A stretch of DNA of 39,872 nt, taken from positions 1 to 39,872 of the forward strand of contig JAQVSI010000007.1 in NCBI GenBank assembly GCA_028700625.1, given 5' to 3'. Source of the stretch: Candidatus Shapirobacteria bacterium (GTDB lineage: Bacteria; Patescibacteriota; Microgenomatia; UBA12405). Made by a program: the position numbers and the translations under genes. Shown in pieces: positions 6,716 through 16,166 of the stretch (its first letter is position 1; each line of letters opens with the position of its first letter). The notes below the pieces were generated by a model. The model was given only the letters and a program-made list of their open reading frames with translations, made no database searches and was not told the DNA's origin.

Positions 6716-8020
6716 ATGTATCAAAAAATTAAAAATTACTTTTGGCATTTACCCAAAAACCTTTTTTTAAACGCTTACTACGGTTTTCCATCAAAAAAAC
6801 TTACTTTAATCGGTATTACTGGTACTGACGGAAAAACAACCACTTCAGTTTTACTTTACGAAATTCTAAAAAAGGCTGGTATAAACGCAGGTATAATTTC
6901 CACTATTTATGCCAAATTTGGTAATAATCAAGAAATGGACACCGGTCTCCACATGACCAGCCCTGATCCAGCCAGAATTCAAGAAATATTTAGAAAAATG
7001 ATCCAAGCCGGTGTTACTCATGTTGTTTGTGAAGTTACGGCTCATGCTATTGATCAACATCGTTTTCTTGGTTGTAATTTTGCAGTCTCTGGAATAACCA
7101 ACACTTCACATGAACATCTTGATTATTTTAAAAACATTTCTTCCTATGTTGACACTAAAACTAAATTATTTAGAATTTCCAAAAATGCTATTCTAAACAA
7201 AGATGATCCTTCTTTTTCCATTATTAAAAAGCAAATTAAAATTCCTTACAAAACTTTTAGTATCAAAGAAAATTCAGATTACCAAGCTAATAAAATTAAA
7301 TTAGACCAAAATTCGCTTAGTTTTGAAGTTAATAATCAAAAATTTATTACCGACAGTAACACTGAATATCAAGTCTACAATATATTATTAGCTCTTGCGA
7401 TTACAAAAATTTTGAAAATTGATACTTCTATTATTGCCCAAACAATAGAACATTTTCCTGAAACCAAAGGTCGCAGAGAAGAAATTCAAAATGATCTTAA
7501 AATAAAAACTATAATCGATTTTGCTCATACTCCCTTCGCTTTAGAAGCTTCGCTTTATTCACTTAAAAAAACAAATAAGGGCAATCTTATCGTTATTTTT
7601 GGTGCCACTGGAGGTCGTGATCAAAGCAAAAGGCCAATCATGGGAGAAGTTGTTTCCAAACTTGCCAACATTGCCTTAATAACTGCCGACGATACTCGAA
7701 ATGAAAAAATAGAAAATATTAATAAACAAATTATTAGTGGTATTGATCCAAAAAAATCAAAACTAATAGACTACAAAGAAATTATCAGTAAAAAACAAAT
7801 CAAAGAAGTAATTGAATTATCACAAAAAAAATTCGTTTATTTCAATATTCCTAGTCGTCAAGATGCTTTTAATTTGGCTATTAAGTTAAGTAAACCAGAA
7901 GATGTCGTTATTGCATGTGGTAAAGGGCATGAGACTACTATTCTTGATGGCCACACCGAATATCCATGGTCAGAAGCAGAAGCATTTAGAACTGCTTTCA
8001 GACTTAAAACAAATAAATAA
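6716..8020 (+). CDS. murE: MurE-like Mur ligase lacking domain 1
   Basis: Mur ligases use ATP to add an amino acid to a UDP-MurNAc-peptide in the cytoplasm; MurE adds the third residue (mDAP or Lys). The ATP-binding loop GTDGKTTT is at 36-43, followed by MurE-like TSPDPARIQ, SHEHLDYFKNI and FAHTP blocks. The family usually has a UDP-binding domain of about 100 residues before the P-loop. Here only about 35 residues precede it, so domain 1 is missing or severely reduced. At the substrate-recognition site, where mDAP enzymes carry DNPR, this protein has DDTR (325-328). The Arg is kept, which leans towards mDAP or a related diamino acid. 434 residues; the start follows a -10 box. Confidence 0.85.
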   Translation: MYQKIKNYFWHLPKNLFLNAYYGFPSKKLTLIGITGTDGKTTTSVLLYEILKKAGINAGIISTIYAKFGNNQEMDTGLHMTSPDPARIQEIFRKMIQAGVTHVVCEVTAHAIDQHRFLGCNFAVSGITNTSHEHLDYFKNISSYVDTKTKLFRISKNAILNKDDPSFSIIKKQIKIPYKTFSIKENSDYQANKIKLDQNSLSFEVNNQKFITDSNTEYQVYNILLALAITKILKIDTSIIAQTIEHFPETKGRREEIQNDLKIKTIIDFAHTPFALEASLYSLKKTNKGNLIVIFGATGGRDQSKRPIMGEVVSKLANIALITADDTRNEKIENINKQIISGIDPKKSKLIDYKEIISKKQIKEVIELSQKKFVYFNIPSRQDAFNLAIKLSKPEDVVIACGKGHETTILDGHTEYPWSEAEAFRTAFRLKTNK

Positions 8021-8021
8021 T

Positions 8022-8612
8022 ATGACTCAATTCAATTTAAAAAATACTAACAGTATTGATGAAAATTATAAAAAAGGCTTTTTGCCACAAAGAAACGATA
8101 AGAATCTTTTTTATTTTCAAACTAGTTGTCGTTCTAATTTAGAAAAATTTAATTTAAGTTCAGAAAATCGTCGAATATTAAGAAAAACAGAAAATTTTTG
8201 CTTTGAAAAAATATCATTAGAAGATTTTGTTTACAACATTAAAGTTCAAAAAGAAATTCATAATTGGGTTAAAACATTAGAGTGGAATTTTCCCGTTAGT
8301 TCTATAAAAAACATTTTTACTAATCATATTTTTAATTATTTATATATCTGGAAAGACGACAAAAAAAATATTATAGCTTACTCTGTTTGTTATTTTTCAA
8401 ACGAAATTAGTCATATTGCTTATGTTTTTTATAAACCAGATCTTGCCCATGGAAACCTACCAATAAGATTGGTCTTGCAAACAATCATCGATAGTCAAAA
8501 ATCAGGTTTAAAATATTGTTATCTTGGCCGTTTTTCCAAGGATATTGGTTACTATAAGCGCAATATGCCAGGCTTCGAATATTTTGAAAATAATATTTGG
8601 TTAACTTTATAA
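8022..8612 (+). CDS. Arginyl/leucyl-tRNA-protein transferase-fold protein
   Basis: This 196-residue protein resembles the Ate/Bpt family, which moves an amino acid from aminoacyl-tRNA to a protein N-terminus. The opening FQTSCRSNLEKFNLSSENRR parallels the family's CxxC...SRSQRR region, but only one cysteine (Cys36) remains. The C-terminal half has the GNAT-like core: HIAYVFYKPDLAHGNLPIR, then LKYCYLGRFSKDIGYYKRNM, close to the family's YYLGY...MxYK block. It lies between two Mur ligases, 1 base after murE and 3 before the Mpl-like gene. FemX-type enzymes use the same fold to build wall cross-bridges from aminoacyl-tRNA, so a wall-peptide role is an inference worth testing. An in-frame ATG upstream at 7902 lies inside murE and is less likely. 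Confidence 0.6.
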   Translation: MTQFNLKNTNSIDENYKKGFLPQRNDKNLFYFQTSCRSNLEKFNLSSENRRILRKTENFCFEKISLEDFVYNIKVQKEIHNWVKTLEWNFPVSSIKNIFTNHIFNYLYIWKDDKKNIIAYSVCYFSNEISHIAYVFYKPDLAHGNLPIRLVLQTIIDSQKSGLKYCYLGRFSKDIGYYKRNMPGFEYFENNIWLTL

Positions 8613-8615
8613 ACT

Positions 8616-9989
8616 ATGCATATTCATATATTAGGAATTGCAGGAACCATGACCGCTTCTCTGGCCGTCGCTCTTAAAAAAGAAGGGTATTTAATTACTG
8701 GTTCCGATCAGGAAAAAATCTATCCACCAATCAGTACTCTACTCGAGAAAGCAGATATAAAAATAAATAATTCCGAAATCAATAACAATATTGATTTAGT
8801 TATTGTCGGTTCATCTTTTTCTAGTTTTAAAAAATCTAAAGAAGAGTTTAAAAAAATTAAAAAGTTAAAAATAAAATATATTTCAGCTAGTAATTTCATT
8901 GGCCAAAATTTAATCAAAGAAAATTCTATTTTAATTGCTGGAACTTATGGAAAAACAACTATTTCTTCCTTAATTTCTTGGATTTTTCATCAAGCAAAGT
9001 TTAATCCAAATTATATGTTTGGAGGAGAATCTTTAAATAATTTCTCTGCTACTAATATTTCTTCTTCCAATTGGTCAATAGTCGAAGCTGACGAATCAAT
9101 TCATGGTCTAGATACTCAAGCTAAATTTTTATATTACCCCGTCAAATTTTTACTACTAACCAGTGCTGATTGGGAACATAAAGATTCTTATTCCACTGAA
9201 ATTGAAAATTTTAATTCTTTTAAAAAATTAATTACCAATCTTCCCAAAGAAGGACTTCTTTTTATTAATTCTAAAGGTTTTCAAACAAAAGAATTAAGTC
9301 TTTATTCAAATTCAAAAATAATTACTTACAATTCACCAAATTCAGATTATTACCTAAAAAATATCAAAATTAAAACCAATTACACTCTTTTAGAAATTAA
9401 GACACCAAGAAATATCCTTGAAATTAAAACTAATTTAATTGGTCAATTTAATTTTGAAAATATCTTAGCCGCAGTTACCGTTGCTGATAGTTTAAAACTA
9501 GATCAAAACAAAATTAAAAAAGCCATTTCAACTTTTAAAGGAGTCAAGCGCCGAATTGAAAAAATTTATGACAAAAAAAATATATTGATTTTTGATGATT
9601 TTGCTCAATCATCAAACAGAATTGAATCAACACTAACAGCAATTCATTCTCATTTTCCCCAAAAAAATATAAAAGTTTTATATCAACCTCATGCTTCTTT
9701 TCTTCAATACAAAGAAAGTTTAAAAGATTTTGAAAAAGCTTTTGAAATAGCTTCTGAAGTTGTTTTAGCCAAACTAAATTATCAAAATGGGGTTGATAAA
9801 AATAATCGTACTACAGCTAAAGATTTCATAAATATTATTGGTAAAAAATTAAAATATATACCAATAAATGAGGGTATTATTGATTTTTATAAACAAAATT
9901 TAAAAAATGGAGATATTCTTATAAATATGAATTCTGGCGGCTTCGACGAAAACAAGATTATCAAATCTCTTATTAATTCTTTAAAATAA
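8616..9989 (+). CDS. mpl: Mur ligase of the Mpl/MurC type
   Basis: This 457-residue ATP-dependent ligase opens with MHIHILGIAGT and an ITGSD...YPPISTLLE segment, which matches Mpl (the UDP-MurNAc:L-Ala-gamma-D-Glu-mDAP recycling ligase) better than MurC. The P-loop GTYGKTT is at 109-115, with Tyr where most family members have His. IVEADES and LTSADWEHKDSY follow the Mpl/MurC pattern. In a cluster without another MurC, it may serve as the L-Ala-adding enzyme, attach a preformed peptide, or do both. It is placed between the transferase-fold gene and murA on the same strand. Substrate is uncertain; ligase class is firm. Confidence 0.8.
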   Translation: MHIHILGIAGTMTASLAVALKKEGYLITGSDQEKIYPPISTLLEKADIKINNSEINNNIDLVIVGSSFSSFKKSKEEFKKIKKLKIKYISASNFIGQNLIKENSILIAGTYGKTTISSLISWIFHQAKFNPNYMFGGESLNNFSATNISSSNWSIVEADESIHGLDTQAKFLYYPVKFLLLTSADWEHKDSYSTEIENFNSFKKLITNLPKEGLLFINSKGFQTKELSLYSNSKIITYNSPNSDYYLKNIKIKTNYTLLEIKTPRNILEIKTNLIGQFNFENILAAVTVADSLKLDQNKIKKAISTFKGVKRRIEKIYDKKNILIFDDFAQSSNRIESTLTAIHSHFPQKNIKVLYQPHASFLQYKESLKDFEKAFEIASEVVLAKLNYQNGVDKNNRTTAKDFINIIGKKLKYIPINEGIIDFYKQNLKNGDILINMNSGGFDENKIIKSLINSLK

Positions 9990-11324: not shown

Positions 11325-12359
11325 ATGATACATCTTTACCTTGGCTTACTTCTTTTTTCGTTTTTAATTACTAGTATTTTGGTTGTCCCTTTCATTAATC
11401 TTCTCTATAAGCTAAAATTTCAACGCCAACATCAAGAAACCACTGATTTTCAAAATAAAAGAACAACTATTTTTGACAAATTTCATAATCAAAAAAAAGG
11501 TACTCCAGTTGGAGGAGGTCTGTTAGTTATTATTTCTGTTTGTATCCTTTTTCTTATTCTCTTTCCTATTCTTAAGTTTTCCCGAATCTTTATCTCTTCA
11601 AATTACGACATAATTCATGAATTATTCATTCTTTTTTTCACTTTTATTAGTTTTGGTCTTCTCGGTCTATATGACGATATCTATAAATTTTTTGGGTTTA
11701 AAAAAACTAGATTCTTCGGTCTAAAAATGATTCATAAATTGATTTTACAAATAATTCTTTCTTTAATTATCTCTCTGATGATTTACTTCCAGTTAAAAAC
11801 TGATTTTATTTATCTACCTTTCTTAGGAGCAATAAAACTAGGCATTTTCTTCATCCCTATTTCCACCATAATAATTACTGGTTTCGCCAATTTTTTTAAT
11901 ATTACTGATGGACTAGATGGTCTTTCCTGTGGATTACTAATGATTGCTCTTTTTGCTTTTTGGATTTTAGCTAGCACTTCACTAGATACTGTTATTTCCT
12001 CTTTTTTAGCTTTGTGGATCGGCGCCCTAATAGCTTTTCTTTACTTCAATGTTTACCCAGCCAGAATTTGGTTAGGAGACGTCGGATCTCTTTCTTTTGG
12101 AGCCACTTTTGCTGTTATTGCTCTTCTTTTAGGAAAAATAGTTCCTTTAATAATTGTTGGATCACCTTTCATAATAGAAGGTCTTTCTAGTGCCATTCAA
12201 CTTCTTAGTAAAAAATATTTTAAAAGAAAAGTTTTTCCAGCTGCTCCAATTCACCTAACTCTTCAACATCTTGGGTGGGAAGAACCAAAAATAGTCATGC
12301 GTGCTTGGCTAGCTGGCATTATATTAGCAATCTTTGGATTATGGCTGGGAATAAACTAG
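11325..12359 (+). CDS. mraY: Phospho-MurNAc-pentapeptide transferase MraY
   Basis: This polytopic membrane enzyme transfers phospho-MurNAc-peptide to undecaprenyl phosphate to give lipid I. It is 344 residues with about ten hydrophobic segments. Catalytic-site elements are LYDDIY (Asp117, Asp118), NITDGLDGL (192-200) and GDVGSL (251-256). Near the C-terminus the usual PIHHHxE motif is replaced by PIHLTLQHLGWEE (308-320), so two of the three conserved histidines are missing. The rest of that block (GWxEPKIVMR) is typical of MraY. The end overlaps the next gene by 19 bases. Confidence 0.92.
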   Translation: MIHLYLGLLLFSFLITSILVVPFINLLYKLKFQRQHQETTDFQNKRTTIFDKFHNQKKGTPVGGGLLVIISVCILFLILFPILKFSRIFISSNYDIIHELFILFFTFISFGLLGLYDDIYKFFGFKKTRFFGLKMIHKLILQIILSLIISLMIYFQLKTDFIYLPFLGAIKLGIFFIPISTIIITGFANFFNITDGLDGLSCGLLMIALFAFWILASTSLDTVISSFLALWIGALIAFLYFNVYPARIWLGDVGSLSFGATFAVIALLLGKIVPLIIVGSPFIIEGLSSAIQLLSKKYFKRKVFPAAPIHLTLQHLGWEEPKIVMRAWLAGIILAIFGLWLGIN

Positions 12360-12895
12360 AATTATTAAAACAAGAAATTCAATATTATATTGGTTTGCCT
12401 TATAGCAAAAATATTTTAAAAGACAGAAAAATAATCAAAGAACAATTTCTTGGAGGTAAGGGTAATTATCGACAAATTGCTGCTGAAACTATTCGACTCG
12501 CCCAAAAACAAAAAATAGATTTAGTTAAACTAACCAATCAAGAATTTTACAATTTTCAAAAAAAGAATCATCTTGGTATTGATTGTTCTGGTCTTGTTTG
12601 TCAATTATTAAATTTTTATTTTAACGCTAAACTAGAACCTCGAAAAATCTCTGCCAGCATGCTTACTTCAAGTCCAATTTCCCAAGAAATAACTGATTTA
12701 AATGACTTACAAACTGGTGATCTTATTCGCCAAAAAAACGGCCACCATGTTTTATTCATCATAGAAAAAACAGGTAATATCATTAATTATGTAGAAAGCT
12801 CTCTTTCTGGCAGGGGAGTTAAATATGGAAAAGCCAATATTACTGACAAATCATTCAAGCACCAAGGTTTTTATCGTTTATTTTTCCTCGATTAA
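12341..12895 (+). CDS. NlpC/P60-type cysteine peptidase without signal peptide
   Basis: This 184-residue protein has the NlpC/P60 core: the nucleophile Cys82 in GIDCSGLV, the His136 region GHHVLFII, and a polar residue in NYVESS. Family members cut gamma-D-Glu-diamino acid bonds in wall peptides or carry out related papain-fold chemistry. No signal peptide or membrane helix is visible from the ATG at 12341 (MAGNKLELLKQEIQ). A longer frame from 12275 would only add residues encoded inside mraY. It is therefore probably cytoplasmic, acting on precursors or recycled peptides. It overlaps mraY by 19 bases, suggesting translational coupling, and converges tail-to-tail with the LysW-like gene (18-base overlap). 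Confidence 0.75.
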   Translation: MAGNKLELLKQEIQYYIGLPYSKNILKDRKIIKEQFLGGKGNYRQIAAETIRLAQKQKIDLVKLTNQEFYNFQKKNHLGIDCSGLVCQLLNFYFNAKLEPRKISASMLTSSPISQEITDLNDLQTGDLIRQKNGHHVLFIIEKTGNIINYVESSLSGRGVKYGKANITDKSFKHQGFYRLFFLD

Positions 12896-13036
12896 TTCAC
12901 GATATTTTAAAGGGTTTAAGGATAAAATCTCAACTTCTGTACCACATTCTGGACATTCAATAATATCTCCAACCATTGTGGCTTCAATTAATTCAATTTC
13001 TGTTTTACAATCTGGACAAATAACTTTTTCGTTCAT
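12878..13036 (-). CDS. LysW-like zinc-ribbon protein (52 aa)
   Basis: A short minus-strand gene, ATG at 13036 to TAA at 12878, encodes 52 residues. Cys7/Cys10 (ICPDC) and Cys28/Cys31 (ECPEC) form a zinc ribbon. The spacing and the intervening acidic EIELIEATMVGDIIECPECG, followed by EVEILSLNPL, closely match LysW. LysW is the amino-group carrier protein whose C-terminal Glu is loaded by an ATP-grasp ligase (LysX/ArgX) in lysine or arginine synthesis. The canonical C-terminal EDWGE is absent: this protein ends IEEK. It is divergent from the PLP and ATP-grasp genes (40-base gap). Existence as a gene is well supported by the coding pattern; a carrier role is inference. Confidence 0.75.
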   Translation of the reverse strand: MNEKVICPDCKTEIELIEATMVGDIIECPECGTEVEILSLNPLKYRELIEEK

Positions 13037-13059
13037 GTTTTATTAAAATTTATAACTAG

Positions 13060-13065
13060 TATAAT
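13060..13065 (+). promoter_or_regulatory. -10 box for the PLP/ATP-grasp operon
   Basis: TATAAT lies 11 bases before the ATG at 13077, in the 40-base divergent gap shared with the LysW-like gene. The predicted leader is about 5 bases. On the other strand a TTGACA (13083-13078) and a TATACT lie upstream of the LysW-like gene, but their spacing of about 14 is short. Confidence 0.45.
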
Positions 13066-13076
13066 TAAACTATTAT

Positions 13077-13898
13077 ATGTCAAATACACCATTAATTAAA
13101 TTAGAAAATATATATTTCAAAAGGGAAGATTTAAATAAAACTGGTTCAGCCAAAGATAGAGCTATAATTTTTCAAATAGAAAATCTGAAAAAACAAGGTT
13201 TTAAAAGTGCTGTAATTTCCAGTACTGGCAACGCCGCCATTTCTGCTTCCTATTTTTGTCATCTTAATCAAATCGAACTAACAGTCTTTCTTTCTCCAAA
13301 AGTAAATCAAAACAAATTGGCTTTAATTAAAAAAAATCATTGCCAAATAGTCTTTTCTGACAAACCTATCAGTGATTCCATCAAATTTGCTAAAAAAAAT
13401 AATAGTTATCTTTTACGCCAATCGACTGATCCTAGTGCCTTAATTGGCTATCAAGAAATTGGCAAAGAATTAAATAAAGAATTACCAGAAATTACCAGTA
13501 TTTTTATTCCAGTTGGCAGTGGTTCTACCCTTTTAGGAATTTCTAAATCATTAAATCCATCAGTCAAAATTTTTGCAGTTCAACCAGCCAGTAATTGCCC
13601 TCTATCGAAAAATTTTGATCAAAATTATCAACCAGAAACAGAAAATATCACCGATGCTATTTCTGTAAAATATTTACCACTTAAATCTCAAATTATTTCT
13701 ACTATCAAAAATAGTGGAGGAACAAGTTTAGTTATTCAAAATAAGGATATTATCGAAGCTCAAAATGAATTAGAATTAAAACAAATAAAAACTTCACTCG
13801 AAGGAGCACTGGCTTTTGCTGGTCTAAAGAAAACCATTAAAAATAAAATAGAAATAGGTAGTTACCCAGTTGTACTTTTAACCGGATGTCAAAGATAA
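13077..13898 (+). CDS. PLP-dependent fold-type II enzyme (threonine synthase-like)
   Basis: This 273-residue protein carries the fold-type II PLP pattern. The Schiff-base lysine is probably Lys26 in KTGSAKDR (compare GSFKDR in threonine synthase). The substrate/PLP loop is STGNAAIS (49-56), and the phosphate-binding loop is PVGSGSTLLG. At about 270 residues it is shorter than threonine synthase or cysteine synthase, and its substrate cannot be read from sequence. It overlaps the ATP-grasp gene by 13 bases, so the two are almost certainly co-translated, and it is divergent from the LysW-like gene. Making or racemising an unusual amino acid for the next enzyme is a plausible but unproven role. 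Confidence 0.75.
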   Translation: MSNTPLIKLENIYFKREDLNKTGSAKDRAIIFQIENLKKQGFKSAVISSTGNAAISASYFCHLNQIELTVFLSPKVNQNKLALIKKNHCQIVFSDKPISDSIKFAKKNNSYLLRQSTDPSALIGYQEIGKELNKELPEITSIFIPVGSGSTLLGISKSLNPSVKIFAVQPASNCPLSKNFDQNYQPETENITDAISVKYLPLKSQIISTIKNSGGTSLVIQNKDIIEAQNELELKQIKTSLEGALAFAGLKKTIKNKIEIGSYPVVLLTGCQR

Positions 13899-15001
13899 AA
13901 TTAGAAAATATCATCAATAATTCTCCATACGCCTTTTATTTTTTGGTCGTTGATAAATTTTTAGACATAGATTTACCTCAAATCAAAAATTTTCACAAAA
14001 TTTATCTTTCAGACTATTCGTCTATAAAAATTAAAAATAGCGGTAAATTGCTTAGTAATCCAGCAGTAATTAAATATATAAAAACAACTTCTGGTTCTCT
14101 AATTCCAGTTATCATTCCTTTCAAACCATCTGCCAAAATTGACATTATCTGTCAACAAAATAATTGGATAAATATTAGTAATCCCGGCCCAATTAATCGC
14201 TTTTTAGAAAATAAAATTAAATTTGCCAAACTTTGTCAAAAATATCATCTACCTATCATTCCTTTTTCAATAGATATTTTTTCAGAAGAAAACTTTTTGA
14301 AATATCAACATCTTTATGGCCCAAATTTAGTTATTCAAACTCATTTTGGTTGGGCAGGTAACAGCACTTTTTCTGCTTCATCTTGGGATCAAATTAAAGA
14401 TAAAATATCATCAATGGTTATTGTAAAATATAGCCCTTTTATAAAATCTTCTTATTCTTTATTAAATAATTGTTGTCTAACCAAATTTGGTCTAATTCAA
14501 AGTCCACCTGCACTTCAGTATACCGGCATTTCTCCTTACACAAAAAATCCTTTTACCACGGTCGGTCGCCAATGGCCATCTTTTGCTCCACCAAAAATAA
14601 TCAAAATCATCAATAAAATAAGTGAGGACTTTGGTCAAATAATAAAAGAAATCGGCTATAAAGGTTTCTTTGGTTTAGATTTTTTAGTTTCAAATGATAA
14701 AATCTTTTTATTAGAATGTAATCCTCGTCTTACTGCTTCCTTTGCTTTCTATACTAAACTTGAAATCGATCAAAAAATTAATCCCCTTTTCTACTTTCAT
14801 TTAATTGAATTTCTAAAACTAAATTATTCTATTAATTTGAAATTTGAAAAAGAAAGATTTAATAATAAAAAAATTATTGGTTCCGAACTTACTCCAAAAA
14901 ACAAAAACAATTATACTTACAAAAAATTAAATTTTTCTTATCCTCTCTCAAAATCTCCAAATCATATTTCTATCTCCATAAAATTAAATGAAAAAAACTA
15001 A
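13886..15001 (+). CDS. ATP-grasp ligase, substrate unknown
   Basis: This 371-residue protein has ATP-grasp features. The nucleotide-binding beta-loop is LVIQTHFGWAGNSTF (148-162). The metal-binding end is GFFGLDFLVSNDKIFLLECN (260-279), followed by PRLTAS. Enzymes of this class make amide bonds through an acyl-phosphate. Candidates by context are a wall cross-bridge ligase (as for the D-Asp ligase of enterococci) or a LysX-like carrier-protein ligase. It is longer than LysX (about 280 residues). It overlaps the PLP gene by 13 bases and ftsW by 14 bases, which ties it tightly to the wall cluster. Class is firm; substrate is open. Confidence 0.75.
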   Translation: MSKIKLENIINNSPYAFYFLVVDKFLDIDLPQIKNFHKIYLSDYSSIKIKNSGKLLSNPAVIKYIKTTSGSLIPVIIPFKPSAKIDIICQQNNWINISNPGPINRFLENKIKFAKLCQKYHLPIIPFSIDIFSEENFLKYQHLYGPNLVIQTHFGWAGNSTFSASSWDQIKDKISSMVIVKYSPFIKSSYSLLNNCCLTKFGLIQSPPALQYTGISPYTKNPFTTVGRQWPSFAPPKIIKIINKISEDFGQIIKEIGYKGFFGLDFLVSNDKIFLLECNPRLTASFAFYTKLEIDQKINPLFYFHLIEFLKLNYSINLKFEKERFNNKKIIGSELTPKNKNNYTYKKLNFSYPLSKSPNHISISIKLNEKN

Positions 15002-16166
15002 ATCACCTTTACTTTTTTTAGTTTTTAGTCTTGTTTTTATCGGTCTTATTTTCATTTCTATCTCTTCTTTAAGTGAAGCCAATTCTACTATTGGAGATAA
15101 ATTTTTCTTTATTAAAAAACAAGGATTTTGGCTTATATTAGGAATTGCCGCTCTTTATGTAACTTCAAAAGTTAAAATAGAATTTATAAAGAAATTTTCT
15201 TTTGTTTTTTATAGTATTTCTATTTTAGGTTTAATTTTGGTCTTAATTCCTGGTTTAGGAAATGAAGCTCTTGGAGCTAAGCGTTGGTTAGATCTGGGCT
15301 TCACTAGTATTCAACCATCTGAGATATTAAAACTTACTTCTATTATCTATTTTTCTTATCTTTTTTCCAAACCAGAAAAACGTCATTTAAAAAACTTAAT
15401 TCTTTATTTAGGAATTCCTTTTATTCTTATTATTATTGAACCAAATCTAAGCACCGCCATTTTAATCTCTGCCATAGTCGGTTCGATTTACTATCTTTCC
15501 GGAGGTGACATTTTACCTTTGTTTGGAATCATTATTTTCACCTTAATTCTCAGCATTCCTCTAATTTTTTTGTCACCCTATCGATCAGCCAGATTAAAAA
15601 CCTTCTTAGAACCACAACAAAACCAAAGCACTTCTTCGTATCACAGCAATCAAATTATATTAACTCTTTCCAGTGGAGGTTTATTCGGTAAAGGTTTTGC
15701 TAATTCTGATCAAAAATATAAGTTTTTACCAAAAATTTCAACTGATTCAATCTTGGCTGTTATTGGAGAAGAGGTCGGTTTTATTGGTCTTTTTGCTGTT
15801 TTATTAATTTATCTTTCTCTAATAAATTATCTATTAAAGTTTTCTCAAACGATAGAAGATCCTTTTCAAAGTTTATTAGTATCCGCCACTGCTTGTTGGA
15901 TTGCTTATCAGAGCTTAATTAATATTTCTGCTATCGCGGCTCTTATTCCTCTAACAGGAGTTCCTCTTCCTTTTATTTCCTATGGTGGATCTTCACTTCT
16001 AACCCTCTTTATTGCCATCGGTTTGGTTAGAAATGTCGAAAAAAATCAAAAAATGCTGCTATACTCAAAGGGTGAGCATCATGAAAACAAAAAAAACGAT
16101 CATCATCACAGGAACACATCTCACCCCAGCTTTAGAACTAATTCGACAATTGAAAAACGATCCTAA
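14988..16166 (+). CDS. ftsW: SEDS peptidoglycan glycosyltransferase FtsW
   Basis: This 392-residue polytopic membrane protein has about ten hydrophobic helices. SEDS hallmarks are GAKRWLDLGFTSIQPSEILK in the third to fourth helix region, FLPKISTDSILAVIGEE with the conserved Asp of the large external loop, and PLTGVPLPFISYGGSSLL near the end. FtsW polymerises lipid II at the septum with its partner class B PBP. The last ~29 residues are His/Asn-rich (HHENKKNDHHH) and are encoded in a different frame over the first 86 bases of murG, so the tail may be non-functional or the stop displaced. Confidence 0.9.
   Translation: MKKTKSPLLFLVFSLVFIGLIFISISSLSEANSTIGDKFFFIKKQGFWLILGIAALYVTSKVKIEFIKKFSFVFYSISILGLILVLIPGLGNEALGAKRWLDLGFTSIQPSEILKLTSIIYFSYLFSKPEKRHLKNLILYLGIPFILIIIEPNLSTAILISAIVGSIYYLSGGDILPLFGIIIFTLILSIPLIFLSPYRSARLKTFLEPQQNQSTSSYHSNQIILTLSSGGLFGKGFANSDQKYKFLPKISTDSILAVIGEEVGFIGLFAVLLIYLSLINYLLKFSQTIEDPFQSLLVSATACWIAYQSLINISAIAALIPLTGVPLPFISYGGSSLLTLFIAIGLVRNVEKNQKMLLYSKGEHHENKKNDHHHRNTSHPSFRTNSTIEKRS

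Follow-up and report, generated by a model that had tools for sequence, protein, structure and literature searches.

To our knowledge, the order and the enzymes of stem-peptide synthesis (MurC, MurD, MurE and MurF) are treated as near universal. The E. coli ligase Mpl attaches ready-made L-Ala-gamma-D-Glu peptides. The cytoplasmic YkfC enzymes of the NlpC/P60 class require a free L-Ala and cut the bond between gamma-D-Glu and meso-diaminopimelate (PMC9928106). The protein carrier LysW has an EDWGE motif whose C-terminal Glu is loaded on its gamma-carboxyl (PMC10433800). Here, we describe a set of three genes (hereafter the trio), coding for a LysW-like zinc-ribbon protein, a fold-type II pyridoxal 5'-phosphate (PLP) enzyme and an ATP-grasp ligase, that lies among the cell wall genes of a Candidatus Shapirobacteria genome (contig JAQVSI010000007.1 of assembly GCA_028700625.1, analysed as a stretch of 39,872 nucleotides that we call the window). 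An earlier interpretation made from the letters of this stretch (the sequence-only reading) had proposed a carrier-based route that makes or loads an unusual wall amino acid or cross-bridge.

The three genes are conserved together with wall genes, occupy the position of murD in genomes in which MurD is absent, and encode a putative carrier with an invariant Lys at its tail; in genomes of the window's type, MurC is absent as well. We consider the chances evenly balanced that the trio forms the heart of a module for wall precursors. This module would take the place of MurI-MurD and, with the help of an ATE-like transferase, an NlpC/P60-type peptidase and an Mpl-like ligase, that of MurC too, with stem residue 2 being made on the carrier.

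The trio is conserved among wall genes

All three open reading frames are intact in the window, and their coordinates and overlaps are as the sequence-only reading had them (Table 1). The PLP and ATP-grasp genes overlap by 13 bases, and the ATP-grasp gene overlaps ftsW by 14. The carrier gene stands head-to-head with the PLP gene in each of the 51 Patescibacteria loci that hold a carrier gene, with a gap of less than about 130 bases in 48 of them, and the ATP-grasp gene follows directly 3' of the PLP gene in 44 of these loci. Among 281 sampled genomes of the class, the trio-type ATP-grasp was found in 44 and the LysW-like protein in 47, with 42 genomes having both; two have the ATP-grasp without the carrier and five the carrier without the ATP-grasp. 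Both the arrangement and the co-occurrence exceed chance.

About 30 genomes of the window's family share the order mraY, NlpC/P60, LysW-like (opposite strand), PLP, ATP-grasp, ftsW, murG; the nearest named relatives belong to Candidatus Shapirobacteria (Microgenomates). Beyond this family, two more of the same order have the trio, as do other families within the class and some distant ones in the phylum, WWE3 among them. This survey of relatives supports co-conservation of the three genes with wall genes. The sequence-only reading had named a failure of the genes to co-occur in relatives as grounds for refutation, and the survey did not refute it. Looser relatives of the ATP-grasp also occur without a carrier (for example L117 and L159-L168), and several of these genomes have a MurD above the cut-off. 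At one such locus, from a member of the Desulfarculaceae (L117:5845-10095), the distant ATP-grasp relative lies beside an ATP-grasp of the L-amino-acid-ligase type and a circularly permuted ATP-grasp, and no carrier was found there.

The trio occupies the MurD slot

The gene order in E. coli is mraY-murD-ftsW, and members of the class without the trio have mraY-(MurI)-MurD-ftsW (L284, L285, L289, L292-L295 and L297). At trio loci the order is mraY-(NlpC)-LysW/PLP/ATP-grasp-ftsW, such that the trio fills exactly the MurD slot. A different arrangement is found in family f21, whose members carry MurI-MurD after MurC. One member of this family (G143) has the NlpC and trio genes at that place, after an Mpl-like ligase that groups in a tree with the ligases of other trio genomes and not with those of its own family. 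Judging from these sequences, G143 looks like a second displacement that came about through transfer of the gene set.

A MurD scoring above the curated cut-off was found in none of the 44 trio genomes, versus 192 of the 237 other sampled genomes (Fisher p 9e-27, a value that ignores kinship). Because the test takes no account of relatedness, the two separate displacements carry more weight. Displacement of MurD by the trio is well supported by these genomic data.

The window genome is 96.65% complete and carries MurA (in the window, assigned by synteny), MurB, MurE, two MurF-like ligases and Ddl. No MurD, PF01177 racemase or alanine racemase was found in it; D-amino-acid transaminase was not searched for.

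The putative carrier ends in an invariant lysine

The carrier of the window has the zinc-ribbon domain of LysW (PF21344) and the C-terminus ...LIEEK-COOH. It scores below the cut-off of both applicable NCBIfam models (38.9 versus 53.2 bits for TIGR01206, and 34.7 versus 75 for NF041070). The terminal residue is Lys in all 51 homologues, which end in EEK, EEEK, VEK, VQK, EQK, ETK or EGK, and the remainder of the sequence has diverged widely among them. An EDWGE motif with C-terminal Glu is not found. Because the last residue is Lys throughout, this LysW-like protein cannot work as the known amino-group carriers do. A small domain with an unvarying last residue would be expected of a carrier or a conjugated protein. 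One homologue (L266:3913-4083) has lost all four zinc Cys residues and retains the ending LLVEK.

The AlphaFold model of the PLP enzyme has a predicted local distance difference test (pLDDT) score of 96, and its top Foldseek match is a threonine synthase. The Schiff-base residue Lys26 is invariant in 53 sequences, and the protein falls within fold type II, where serine and aspartate racemases are among its relatives.

The ATP-grasp model (pLDDT 95.8) shows the ATP-grasp fold and has no close match in Foldseek; the fold search is informative at the superfamily level only, with a best template modelling (TM) score of about 0.6 and no clue to the substrate. Residues E277, N279 and R281, which include the metal-binding E...N pattern of the superfamily, are invariant in 53 sequences. 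By sequence, the protein has a weak match to the Pfam family ATP-grasp_3 (PF02655) and an NCBIfam match, NF005096 (PRK06524), that lies far under its cut-off. Profile and sequence searches gave no match to LysX or RimK, and the GSWGR motif of LysX-type ligases (as defined in PMC10433800) is absent from the sequence. Weaker matches include the gamma-glutamyl ligases NF040722 (the MfnD model) and PDB entry 8yi6, which fit, without proving, the loading of Glu by this enzyme. The search revealed no family of known, unrelated substrate with which the ATP-grasp clusters; such clustering is what the sequence-only reading had said would refute its proposal.

Two types of trio genomes and an Mpl-like ligase

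Trio genomes fall into two types. Those of the first type, which include the window, have neither MurC nor a MurD-like gene, and those of the second type (Gottesmanbacteria-type family f27 and a few others) have MurC and a diverged MurD-like ligase. In every first-type ligase tested, the score against E. coli Mpl exceeds that against E. coli MurC, and the reverse is true of every ligase tested from trio-less and second-type genomes. In a tree of 53 ligases, the 20 first-type sequences form one clade (100/99); it and E. coli Mpl stand apart from every MurC. These ligases lack the DDYxHHP and GAG motifs of MurC, and MSSGG or a similar sequence replaces the MSNGG of Mpl. As for the Mpl motif (S/T)AFFDKRSK, a KFxxY part is present in all 20, and a nearly full version occurs only in L348 (SAFYDKRSKF).

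The L-Ala site of H. influenzae MurC comprises Tyr346, His348, His376, Arg377 and Arg380 (PMC3060825). Tyr346 is replaced in all 20 first-type ligases and the other residues in many, with the Arg380 equivalent being kept in some outer lineages. In the lineage of the window, Tyr346 and His376 are both lost. By clade and by L-Ala-site residues alike, the window ligase thus stands outside MurC.

In genomes of the second type, the trio directly follows the diverged MurD-like ligase (L103, 174 bits versus a cut-off of 212) and is accompanied by an NlpC/P60 gene. A protein of the YfiH/PgeF type (PF02578), a family that edits errors at residue 1, is encoded beside murC at 12 of 15 second-type loci (for example L334:6892-7539) and at none of 35 first-type loci.

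Putative transferase and peptidase genes accompany the trio

Two further genes, compared at the level of loci, lie outside the coordinates of the sequence-only reading. The ATE-like gene is situated between murE and the gene for the Mpl-like ligase and was found at 32 of 35 first-type loci, versus none of 15 second-type loci and none of 12 trio-less loci around the ligase (0/27). A PDB search with this family returned a single weak GNAT match. The amine that a carrier-bound Glu would present is of a type known to be modified by ATE-type transferases. In 40 loci, the NlpC/P60-type gene is found no more than 2 kb from a trio gene, and its Cys, His and GKG residues are invariant across homologues. 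A PDB profile search with this family gave no match.

Table 1. Features of the window that bear on the trio and its wall-gene context
Feature	Positions	Strand	Evidence or remark
LysW-like zinc-ribbon protein, putative carrier	12878-13036	-	52 amino acids; CxxC...CxxC; PF21344 Zn_ribbon_LysW 47.8 bits (cut-off 27)
Gap between carrier and PLP genes (head-to-head)	13037-13076		40 bases; presumed divergent promoter region; same arrangement at all 51 loci
Fold-type II PLP enzyme (threonine-synthase / serine-racemase superfamily)	13077-13898	+	273 amino acids; PF00291 (PALP) 156 bits
ATP-grasp ligase, candidate carrier loader	13886-15001	+	371 amino acids; PF02655 28.6 bits (cut-off 23.2)
mraY, left flank of MurD slot	11325-12359	+	PF00953, synteny
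ftsW, right flank of MurD slot	14988-16166	+	synteny
Mpl-like UDP-MurNAc ligase ('murC' of the cluster)	8616-9989	+	E. coli Mpl 140 versus MurC 108 bits
ATE/GNAT-like, aminoacyl-tRNA-protein-transferase-like protein, candidate Ala adder	8022-8612	+	PF04377 27.1 bits (cut-off 25)
NlpC/P60-type cysteine peptidase, candidate releasing enzyme	12341-12895	+	PF00877 20.4 bits, just below cut-off 23
MurE (next pathway step, kept)	6716-8020	+	TIGR01085 328 bits

Other observations on the wall genes

MurE was considered as a clue and set aside. It has lost its N-terminal domain and carries a non-DNPR motif, but these oddities are uninformative on the trio because trio-less relatives share them. The second MurF-like ligase is encoded at L212:7851-9041 (G000:C50), and the other adjoins Ddl on contig C32. 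An alanine racemase (PF01168) was not found in the window genome or in 27 of 33 relatives, despite the presence of Ddl and MurF. Most relatives (for example L031, L032 and L034) have an open reading frame of about 920-940 amino acids between ftsZ and rodA that the window does not have.

A possible route and its alternatives

The arrangement of these genes suggests the following route. The ATP-grasp ligase would attach Glu to the carrier's terminal Lys, probably through the gamma-carboxyl of the Glu, and so imitate the gamma-Glu-Lys linkage found in the wall. With both its alpha-amino and its alpha-carboxyl group free, the attached Glu would then be inverted by the PLP enzyme. First-type genomes may use the ATE-like protein to add L-Ala from Ala-tRNA onto the Glu amine, after which the NlpC/P60 peptidase would cut the gamma-D-Glu-Lys bond to give L-Ala-D-Glu. 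The Mpl-like ligase would attach this dipeptide to UDP-N-acetylmuramic acid (UDP-MurNAc), with MurE and MurF acting next. In the second type, released D-Glu would pass instead to the diverged MurD-like ligase. We infer every chemical step of this scheme from the genes. That a branch of the Patescibacteria builds stem residues 1 and 2 on the C-terminal Lys of a carrier and transfers the dipeptide to UDP-MurNAc without MurC, MurD or glutamate racemase is a tentative proposal, to which we would give somewhat poorer than even prospects.

Simpler schemes account for part of the same data. The trio might directly replace the standard enzymes, with the PLP protein acting as a free glutamate racemase in the manner of MurI, the ATP-grasp joining D-Glu to UDP-MurNAc-L-Ala in place of MurD, the Mpl-like ligase adding L-Ala, and the LysW-like protein serving for docking or regulation. 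The location of the trio in the MurI-MurD slot agrees with this scheme, as do the kinship of the PLP enzyme with fold-type II serine and aspartate racemases and the formation of acyl-phosphates by ATP-grasp and Mur ligases alike. Furthermore, a multicopy E. coli mpl gene complements a murC mutant (PMC3060825). However, direct replacement leaves unexplained the invariant C-terminal Lys, the linked NlpC/P60 and ATE-like genes, and the fact that an Mpl-like ligase has replaced MurC in just those genomes that lack MurD; it must also contend with the MurD-like ligase beside the trio in the second type, and we regard it as unlikely. Host-dependent cells might otherwise import muropeptides, which the NlpC/P60 enzyme would trim and the Mpl-like ligase re-attach, while the trio would modify a wall amino acid, or trap it, for some other purpose. 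Mpl and cytoplasmic NlpC/P60 enzymes do serve recycling elsewhere, and the 27 relatives in which alanine racemase was not found would suit such a life. A purely salvage-based wall that relies on a missing MurB was rejected, as the window genome and the majority of its relatives have MurB; the retention of this enzyme along with MurE, MurF and Ddl points to de novo building. Salvage is also at variance with the location of the trio, which separate lineages have in the MurD slot, and with the lack of canonical MurD in Gottesmanbacteria-type genomes that retain MurC, and it strikes us as a rather improbable account.

Enterococci make their D-Asp bridge with a racemase and ATP-grasp pair. This precedent, together with the GNAT-fold transferase linked to the trio, could favour a cross-bridge or an unusual wall amino acid (such as D-Ser or D-Asp) that is made on a LysW-type carrier and joined by an ATE/FemX-like transferase. 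A bridge system does not predict the loss of MurC and MurD, however, and the occupied slot points to stem residue 2 (the MurI-MurD step), as does the Mpl-like ligase that replaces MurC. The cross-bridge or unusual wall amino acid proposed by the sequence-only reading is for these reasons very unlikely. Its broader idea of a carrier-based wall route is likely to hold, if not with an amino-group carrier such as those already known (Lys end, no GSWGR). True synthesis of lysine or ornithine on a LysW carrier, the remaining pathway genes being located elsewhere, has the LysW-type zinc ribbon in its favour. The carrier tail and the ligase type contradict it, there being no C-terminal Glu, EDWGE, LysX-type ligase or GSWGR; LysZ, LysY, LysJ and LysK were not seen nearby, although no genome-wide search for them was made. 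This explanation was rejected as barely credible.

Several observations weigh against a carrier-based displacement of MurI, MurD and MurC. The PLP enzyme is closest, in sequence and by Foldseek, to threonine synthase rather than to a racemase. Three first-type loci have no ATE-like gene nearby, the PF04377 score of this protein is weak in the window and below the cut-off in some homologues, and the NlpC/P60 assignment likewise relies on a weak Pfam score (Table 1). For the window ligase, the NCBIfam murC model scores above the mpl model (250.7 versus 185.3 for TIGR01081), both below their cut-offs; therefore, the term Mpl-like means nearer to Mpl and not proven Mpl. Known Mpl is poorly active on L-Ala-D-Glu (PMC3060825), and thus the preference of the Mpl-like clade for this dipeptide is a prediction. 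The second type retains MurC and a MurD-like ligase, such that the trio alone does not abolish ligation by Mur enzymes. A MurI-type gene (PF01177) is present in eight of the 44 trio genomes and alanine racemase is mostly missing from relatives anyway; because of this, the absence of MurI argues little for the route, and racemase loss was rejected as proof of it. D-amino acids could also be scavenged, and the evidence is wholly genomic and derives mostly from metagenome-assembled genomes.

The findings suggest that a large group of very small bacteria, most of them uncultured, start the wall peptide on a protein carrier, by a previously undescribed route. A literature search of partial coverage returned no paper joining LysW or MurD with wall synthesis in Patescibacteria. 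If true, the carrier-based module would represent a new way to the core wall precursor, one in which MurA, MurB, MurE and MurF are kept and a carrier-linked set takes over from MurC, MurI and MurD. It would also extend protein-carrier biosynthesis to the cell wall, and automatic annotations such as 'LysW', 'threonine synthase', 'biotin carboxylase' and 'MurC' would be corrected in many uncultured genomes.

Comparison with known systems

The trio resembles the LysW/ArgW pathway of Thermus and archaea in having a small acidic zinc-ribbon protein with a C-terminal tail, an ATP-grasp candidate loader and a hydrolase as candidate releaser. In contrast to that pathway, the tail here ends in Lys and not in the loadable Glu of EDWGE, the ATP-grasp comes from another family, no kinase, reductase or aminotransferase is adjacent, and the genes lie in wall clusters. 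Pearlin biosynthesis (PEARL/TglA; PMC9303977) likewise builds amino acids at the C-terminus of a small carrier, as is proposed here, but employs its own loading enzymes and chemistry and yields secondary metabolites.

Compared with the standard Mur pathway (MurI-MurD and MurC), the trio has the same gene slot and, we infer, the same outcome, namely stem residues 1 and 2. Its proteins are unrelated, however, with MurD absent, MurI mostly absent and, in the first type, MurC exchanged for an Mpl-like ligase. Recycling by Mpl and YkfC-type NlpC/P60 peptidases draws on related ligase and peptidase families, whereas the Mpl-like ligase described here occurs in genomes that lack MurC and so apparently acts in the main route rather than in a recycling pathway. 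Finally, the MurD2/MurL system of Xanthomonas (PMC8788868) also bypasses free D-Glu by epimerizing a bound Glu, a reaction demonstrated there and proposed here, but it involves no carrier, PLP or ATP-grasp protein.

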